Below are positions 48,054-63,225 of a DNA stretch of 64,000 bases, one piece after another. A program made the position numbers and the translations under genes. Below the pieces are notes generated by a model. It searched no databases and had not been told where the DNA came from. It saw nothing but the letters and a program-made list of their open reading frames with translations. How positions within the stretch are numbered: the stretch's first letter is position 1; each line of letters opens with the position of its first letter. The stretch lies in contig CP075365.1 of assembly GCA_019454125.1 (NCBI GenBank), forward strand, positions 1,296,218 through 1,360,217. The letters are read 5' to 3'. Source of the stretch: Fimbriimonadaceae bacterium. Lineage in GTDB: Bacteria; Armatimonadota; Fimbriimonadia; Fimbriimonadales; Fimbriimonadaceae.

Positions 48054-48152
48054 GGGGCCGGGAACTGCGCGGCAGCAGAACGGTGAACCCCGCCAGGGCC
48101 GGAAGGCAGCAACGGTAAGTCGTCTCTCTGTGCGACGCACCCTTCCCGGCAC
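48054..48152 (+). ncRNA. ffs: signal recognition particle RNA (small bacterial, 4.5S-type)
   Basis: The conserved domain IV is clear: GGTGAACCCCGCCAGG, then GCC-GGAA-GGC (the Ffh-binding GGAA tetraloop), then AGCAACGGTAAG. The ends pair as GCCGGGAA (48057-48064) with TTCCCGGC (48143-48150), giving the long hairpin of about 95 bases. With Ffh it targets nascent membrane and secreted proteins. It lies just upstream of dnaX, as in many bacteria. The exact ends are estimates. Confidence 0.88.
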
Positions 48153-48157
48153 TTGCC

Positions 48158-61598: not shown

Positions 61599-62654
61599 AT
61601 GAACATCGAGTTGTTCCGCGAGCTGACCGAGGCGCACGGCTCGCCGGGCCGGGAAGAAGCGATTCGCGACATCGTGATCCGCGAGCTCAAGCCGTTCTGC
61701 GAGCTGAGCTCAGATTCCATGGGCAACGTGATCGCCCTGAAGCGCGGTTCGAAGAGGGAAGGGGCGAAGAAGCTGATGATCGCTGGCCACATGGACGAGA
61801 TCGGGTTCCGGGTGAAGCACATCAGCGACAAAGGGTTCCTGCGTATCGTGCCGACCGGCGGCTGGGATCCGCGCCAGATGGCGAGCCAGCGCGTGAAGGT
61901 CCACACCCGCGAAGGCTTGATCTCAGGATTGCTCATGATGAGCACAAAGCCAAAGCACATGCTTCAACCGGGCGAAGGAGCAAAGGAGCCTAGCATCGAC
62001 GATTTCTTCATCGATATCGGCATGTCGGGCGACGCGGCGAAAGAGAGGGTGGAACTGGGCGACGCCGTGACGATGGACCGGACGTTCATCGAAATGGGCG
62101 AGCTATGCACCTGCAAGGCGATGGACGACCGCGTCGCCGTCTTCGTGATGATCGAGGCCATGAAGGCGGCGAAGGCGCACGAGGTGGACGTGTACGGCGT
62201 CGCGACCGTCCAGGAAGAAGTCGGGCTGCGAGGCGCGGTGGCCAGCGGCTGGGCGATCCACCCCGATGTCTGCGTGGCGCTCGACGTCACCTTGGCCAAT
62301 GACATCCCGGGCTTGACGGACGAGTTCAGCGTCACCAAGCTGGGCGAAGGCACGGCGATTAAGATCCTGGACAGTTCGCTCATTTGCCACCCCAAGGTCG
62401 TCCGCCACTTCCGCGACCTTGCCGAGAAGAACGAGATCAAGTACCAGCTTGAGGTCCTGCCTTTCGGTGGCACCGACGCGGGCGGGGTCCAGCGCCTTCA
62501 TGGCGGCATCCCCTCGTTCACTCTCAGCGTCCCGTGCCGATATGTCCACACCGTGAACGAGACGGTGCATAAGGGCGACGTCCAAGCGTCCATCGACCTC
62601 CTGGCGCGCTATATCGAGGACTGCCAAAACGGGGACTACGGCTACGGGGTGTAG
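61599..62654 (+). CDS. M42 family aminopeptidase (FrvX/glutamyl aminopeptidase-like)
   Basis: A dodecameric-type metalloaminopeptidase of 351 residues. HMDEIGF at 64-70 holds the first His and Asp metal ligands. KAMDDRVA near 176 (bridging Asp), QEEVGLRG near 205 (catalytic Glu pair), ALDVT near 228 and YVHTVNET near 315 (last His) complete the site. The N-terminal LTEAHGSPGREEAIRD is typical. Start ATG 61599. It is cytoplasmic and removes N-terminal residues from peptides; specificity unclear. Confidence 0.92.
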   Translation: MNIELFRELTEAHGSPGREEAIRDIVIRELKPFCELSSDSMGNVIALKRGSKREGAKKLMIAGHMDEIGFRVKHISDKGFLRIVPTGGWDPRQMASQRVKVHTREGLISGLLMMSTKPKHMLQPGEGAKEPSIDDFFIDIGMSGDAAKERVELGDAVTMDRTFIEMGELCTCKAMDDRVAVFVMIEAMKAAKAHEVDVYGVATVQEEVGLRGAVASGWAIHPDVCVALDVTLANDIPGLTDEFSVTKLGEGTAIKILDSSLICHPKVVRHFRDLAEKNEIKYQLEVLPFGGTDAGGVQRLHGGIPSFTLSVPCRYVHTVNETVHKGDVQASIDLLARYIEDCQNGDYGYGV

Positions 62655-62823: not shown

Positions 62824-63225
62824 ATGGTTCGAAGCACGACCATCACGGCCGCCTTGGCCGCGGTGCTTGGCCTGGCCATTTTTGGGTGTGCGCCGCAGGA
62901 CTCGGAAATCTCCGAGTCCCCGGTCGCCCAGAAAGAGGCCGCCCAGCCGACCGCAACTGTCGCCGCTTCGGAAGCTGAGGCCAAGAGCTACAAAGCCGTC
63001 CTCAGCGTTCCGGGCATGACGTGAGCCTCCTGCCCCGCCACGGTGCGGTCCATCTTGGTCAAGATGGATGGAGTCAAAGACGTCAAGACCGACCAGCCGT
63101 CCCTCACGGCGACCGTCGTCTACGACGGAAAGGTCACGACCGCGGAGAAGATCGCCAAGGCGCTCGGTGACGAGCAGGCGCGTTACGCGGCCACGGTCAA
63201 GTCCAAGTCGGTCCAGCCCGGCTAA
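62824..63225 (+). CDS. HMA-domain lipoprotein with in-frame TGA read as selenocysteine
   Basis: Read through TGA 63022-63024 (codon 67), this is one 133-residue protein. A lipoprotein signal peptide (ITAALAAVLGLAIFGC, Cys about residue 22) precedes a Glu/Ala-rich linker. The heavy-metal-associated domain follows: VPGMT-U-ASC, where related proteins have GMTCxxC, then ILVKMDGVKDV and ATVVYDGKVTTAEKIAKAL, the expected HMA strands and helices. Sec67 and Cys70 would bind a soft metal or act as a redox pair on the outer face of the membrane. The domain continues normally past TGA, so termination there would leave a truncated protein without its metal site. Confidence 0.85.
63022..63024 (+). other. 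TGA codon proposed to encode selenocysteine (residue 67 of the HMA lipoprotein)
   Basis: The codon replaces the first cysteine of the GMTCxxC metal-binding loop and is followed by GCC TCC TGC. The HMA fold continues in the same frame for 66 residues to TAA 63223-63225. Confidence 0.84.
63049..63068 (+). promoter_or_regulatory. bacterial SECIS-like hairpin
   Basis: TCCATCTT (63049-63056) and AAGATGGA (63061-63068) form a perfect eight-pair stem with a GGTC loop at 63057-63060. The loop begins 33 bases after the TGA. A GGUC loop is like that of the well-studied E. coli fdhF SECIS, and the spacing lies in the 16-37 base range, so this is a strong SelB-binding candidate. Confidence 0.75.

Follow-up and report, generated by a model that had tools for sequence, protein, structure and literature searches.

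A predicted HMA-domain selenoprotein with a probable membrane anchor in Fimbriimonadaceae

Introduction

MerP, the closest well-known relative of the protein considered here, is a soluble periplasmic protein encoded in mer operons. Selenocysteine (Sec) at heavy-metal sites of this kind has precedents: passages of the 2008 Global Ocean Sampling study list two Sec-MerP sequences and one UxxC cation ATPase from the marine metagenome (PMC2398784), and sections of two reviews mention a putative mercuric transport protein and the UxxU metal-binding protein NF041115 (PMC9312934, PMC13188914). Here we analyse a gene of a Fimbriimonadaceae bacterium in which an in-frame TGA occupies the position of the first metal-binding cysteine of a heavy-metal-associated (HMA) domain. 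The 64,000-nucleotide stretch of DNA analysed, hereafter the window, sits in a 2.65-Mb single-contig genome that is 97% complete. We compare the gene with its relatives in the family, the order and the phylum and propose that it encodes a real selenoprotein, exported and probably anchored at the membrane.

Results

The complete frame of the predicted HMA selenoprotein (62824..63225, forward strand) runs from an ATG at 62824 to a TAA ending at 63225 and comprises 133 residues including Sec. The DNA around the in-frame stop is ...CCGGGCATGACG TGA GCCTCCTGC..., with the TGA at 63022..63024 on the same strand, and the translation with this codon read as a residue is MVRSTTITAALAAVLGLAIFGCAP...VPGMT-U-ASCPATVRSILVKMDGV.... 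Residue 67 thereby becomes the first metal ligand of a GMTUxxC motif (GMT-U-ASCP), while the second ligand, Cys70, is encoded by a TGC at 63031..63033 (forward strand) and forms an invariant alignment column. Both ligands belong to an HMA domain with the MerP/CopZ/Atx1-like ferredoxin fold (residues 59-114; 62998..63165, forward strand), which scored 49.3 bits with the Pfam model PF00403, above its gathering cut-off of 24.8. The preliminary description of this locus, which had placed a TGA at the first metal cysteine of an HMA domain, is thus confirmed on this point.

The domain is preceded by a lipoprotein-type signal peptide that extends through Cys22, the putative lipidated residue of the lipobox IFGC (62824..62889, forward strand), and by an Ala/Pro/Glu-rich low-complexity spacer joining anchor and domain (62890..62997, forward strand), which is poorly conserved and disordered in the structural model (pLDDT about 40-45). 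The observations on the lipoprotein signal proposed earlier are mixed: the leader does end in a putative lipobox Cys, but IFGC is slightly atypical because of the Phe at -2, and in the ortholog from genome G054 (L024) the N-terminus is hydrophobic but contains no such Cys. The leaders of the relatives L021, L022, L023, L168 and L169 likewise end in Cys, the lipobox being the canonical LTGC in L022 and VVAC in L023. A membrane anchor is thus probable for most members, though not for all, and it may face the periplasm rather than the cell surface.

Standard ORF calling splits such genes in two, and at this locus it returned, as predicted, a truncated ORF of 66 aa and a second one of 60 aa. Since release at the UGA competes with Sec insertion in every selenoprotein gene, the 66-residue lipopeptide could be regarded as the main product, with the Sec form being minor or selenium-dependent. 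We consider such a regulated truncation quite improbable: the 66-residue part is poorly conserved, and it is the HMA part that is the conserved one.

A bSECIS-like hairpin lies downstream of the TGA (63049..63068, forward strand). Its arms, TCCATCTT (63049-63056) and AAGATGGA (63061-63068), pair exactly over 8 bp and enclose a GGTC loop (GGUC in RNA; 63057-63060). Counting from the TGA, the stem opens with the 25th base and the loop, at an offset of 32 nt, with the 33rd, precisely as had been described. The bSECIS consensus is a hairpin that closely follows the UGA on its 3' side and has a G in its apical loop, and the element found here has both features. No other hairpin of the window, on either strand, combines a GGTC tetraloop with a stem of 7 bp or longer, and lowering the limit to 5 bp adds a single further one; simulated sequence with the same dinucleotides leads one to expect about 0.02 GGTC hairpins with an 8-bp stem in each strand of 64 kb. 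The folding check suggested in the preliminary description gave a divided answer, the hairpin alone being more stable than its shuffles (z -2.3) but the whole 51-66 nt region no better than them (z about -0.3). Because the whole-region fold shows no excess stability, we judge the hairpin by its position, its loop, its covariation and its comparison with SelD. In the G054 gene, three stem pairs are changed on both sides with pairing and loop kept, a covariation that was reached by 10 of 500 shuffles; the support that it lends to the hairpin is suggestive but statistically not strong by itself, as it comes from four sequences, with the divergent G054 as its one source. A hairpin arising by chance was considered and rejected.

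The genome holds the machinery required for decoding: tRNA-Sec with the anticodon TCA (78 bits), SelB (360 bits), SelA (456 bits) and SelD. The concern that the genome might lack the Sec insertion genes, raised together with the original proposal, is thereby removed. In-frame TGA codons are common in SelD, a classic selenoprotein, and the SelD of this organism (L167; G000:C1, near 888060-888206, minus strand) is itself a selenoprotein, with a TGA before ASKLGP. Its gene has a GGTC-bearing hairpin whose loop stands 32 nt after the TGA, an offset identical to that in the HMA gene, so that Sec decoding in this organism has a positive control within the same genome.

The ortholog search covered 85 genomes of the family and 113 of the order. 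The gene was found in five genomes, including that of the window, and always beside the same M42 aminopeptidase gene; in the window, this upstream neighbour is an M42 glutamyl aminopeptidase (61599..62654, forward strand), a synteny marker that is not part of the selenoprotein. The motif codon is TGA in four of the five, namely the window genome, G053 of the same genus, and G031 and G054 of other genera. The ortholog of G004 (L022), at the same locus, has TGC instead (GMTCGSCP). Among the aligned relatives, L021, L023, L024, L168 and L169 have TGA at this position and L022 has TGC. The GGTC hairpin is present at the same place in all four TGA genes and absent from the TGC gene of G004. At the level of sequence, the Cys ortholog completes a Sec/Cys pair at one locus, and since G004 carries SelA, SelB and tRNA-Sec, the Cys form represents an exchange between Sec and Cys within a lineage that uses Sec. 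In all pairwise comparisons of the region downstream of the TGA, dN is lower than dS (0.34 vs 0.94 and 0.28 vs 0.95 in two of them), which indicates that this region is translated and under purifying selection.

Two stop-codon flags, '1 TAA' for L022 and '1 TGA' for L025, were set aside: both lie outside the motif, at which each sequence has Cys. G053 contains a second Sec-HMA copy that looks decayed (L158; HGRT-TGA-RSCPAKVRSIVVKTEGVK; minus strand of G053:C13, about 849-977): its motif is altered, its hairpin is partly damaged, and the similarity stops soon after.

These comparisons bear on two readings in which the TGA would not encode Sec. A sequencing error for TGC, which the preliminary description had named as a possible objection, finds some footing in the single base that separates TGA from the Cys codons; however, a TGA stands at the codon of 63022 in independent assemblies and in other genera, making a read error very unlikely, and the sole Cys ortholog is the one without the hairpin. 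We reject it as having a negligible probability. If, on the other hand, the TGA were a true nonsense mutation, the downstream part would be a relic of a decayed gene, and the decayed copy in G053 does indicate that the family loses genes. Against this, the same TGA is shared by several genera, the frame after it is intact with dN below dS, the hairpin is conserved with compensatory changes, and the Sec machinery is complete. Decay is rejected as well, as highly improbable.

In a search of the phylum (291 genomes), TGA-containing HMA lipoproteins with similar leaders were found in two genera of a distant family. Their motifs are GMT-U-GSC (L168) and GMT-U-GGC (L169), and their hairpins are different from that of the Fimbriimonadaceae genes and weaker. 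Another HMA gene with a TGA, L171 (G122:C673, 344-586), has one extra residue between the ligands (GMS-U-PAGCP), and its GGTC loop follows the TGA at 35 nt, displaced by exactly the added codon; its HMA domain ends a longer, different N-terminal part. The genomes of L168, L169 and L171 carry SelB and tRNA-Sec, as do all genomes compared. A tree of 30 HMA domains, only indicative because the domain is short, clusters six of the seven Sec rows with the Cys row of G004 (94/94 support), and the sequences are compatible with a possible single origin of the Sec form. A contig scan with the single protein gave no match; when repeated with an alignment, it recovered Fimbriimonadaceae records and many MerP-like proteins of other phyla, the latter all with Cys at the motif.

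AlphaFold2 predicts the HMA domain with confidence (pLDDT >90) as a ferredoxin-like strand-helix-strand-strand-helix-strand fold that follows a disordered leader. Of the PDB structures it matches MerP best (1osd; 37% identity, E 4e-7, target TM 0.91) and, after that, domains of copper ATPases, and from this MerP-like fold we infer that Sec67 and Cys70 form an extracytoplasmic soft-metal site. In the genomes looked at, none of the genes nearby was recognisable as a metal-resistance gene. The adjacent genes are the M42 peptidase, a glyoxalase and an exonuclease-like gene, and no mer genes were recognised in the neighbourhood; a MerT search of the genome gave no match, nor did its control. Because metal-resistance genes are not adjacent, the metal role is argued from the fold and the motif. 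The window also contains a bacterial small SRP RNA (48056-48154; RF00169, 58.9 bits).

Discussion

Based on the above data, we propose that the gene encodes a real selenoprotein, whose HMA domain has Sec at the position of the first Cys in the GMTCxxC motif. We assign this reading a probability of roughly 85%, judging from the sequence evidence that backs each of its elements: the frame, the hairpin, the machinery, the conservation and the Sec/Cys pair. In the mechanism that we envisage, SelB bound to the GGUC hairpin 32 nt downstream would deliver Sec-tRNA at the UGA at 63022, and the product would be an exported, membrane-anchored MerP/CopZ-like HMA domain containing Sec. We infer that Sec is actually inserted, that the protein is located at the membrane, and that it binds metal with some selectivity: the most likely task of the Sec-Cys pair, outside the cytoplasm, would be to bind or scavenge a soft metal ion, be it Hg(II), Cu(I) or Ag(I). 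Given that no mer operon is seen in the vicinity, the pair may act on its own, as a trap or donor.

The main rival accepts the selenoprotein and differs in function: the Sec-Cys pair would be an extracytoplasmic thiol/selenol redox centre for peroxide or disulfide chemistry as opposed to a metal site. Bacterial UxxC selenoproteins are mostly oxidoreductases, according to passages of the 2008 study (PMC2398784), and the lack of metal genes nearby also speaks for such a centre. However, the fold is that of an HMA domain and not of thioredoxin, and the Met of GMT and the Pro after UxxC agree with MerP. We thus regard a redox role as unlikely, and soft-metal binding as the somewhat favoured main role of the Sec-HMA protein in view of its motif and modelled fold. 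More tentatively, the anchored Sec-HMA lineage of Armatimonadota could constitute a mer-independent, selenol-based defence, in which the protein serves as a stand-alone extracytoplasmic trap for soft metals (e.g., mercury); we hold this to be possible but doubtful.

Whether such a protein had been described before was left undecided in the preliminary description. Sec in MerP/HMA proteins has indeed been described, but the anchored branch was not found among the descriptions; a literature search for Fimbriimonad- or Armatimonad-selenoproteins returned nothing specific, an absence that is no proof. What seems new is the anchored, single-Sec UxxC form, its distribution in Armatimonadota and the absence of recognised mer genes from its vicinity. 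Because related genomes, all competent for Sec, encode either the Sec or the Cys ortholog, the contribution of selenium to soft-metal binding can be tested directly.

Compared with MerP (TIGR02052; PDB 1osd and 1afi), the predicted protein shares the HMA fold, the GMTCxxCP motif and export, and MerP is its best PDB match; its score with the family model TIGR02052, however, is below threshold (50.8 bits vs a cut-off of 92.55). It differs from MerP by having Sec instead of Cys as the first ligand, by a probable lipid or membrane anchor followed by a long spacer, and by a neighbourhood devoid of recognised mer genes. NF041115 (UxxU_metal_bind) is similarly a small HMA-type protein with Sec in the metal motif, and it is the top or second NCBIfam match for all members tested (47.7-60.3 bits), although its cut-off of 95 is not reached (47.7 bits for the window protein). 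That model is short (74 positions) and has two Sec (UxxU), whereas the Fimbriimonadaceae protein has one (UxxC) and an export/anchor leader. NF045683, the MerT/CopZ fusion-like heavy metal transport selenoprotein, a selenoprotein per NCBI, also has a CopZ-like HMA part, but it is a fusion of 235 positions with a MerT-like membrane part, of which only the HMA segment (positions 158-229) matches, at 34.4 bits vs a cut-off of 375. Finally, the 2008 predictions of Sec-MerP and a UxxC ATPase likewise place Sec in MerP-type or metal-ATPase proteins, and the portions of that study and of the later reviews at hand describe no anchored form, unlike that of Fimbriimonadaceae (PMC2398784). With the present locus, the few predicted selenoproteins that have Sec at a metal site as opposed to a thioredoxin-like redox site are joined by a conserved, syntenic Sec/Cys pair.
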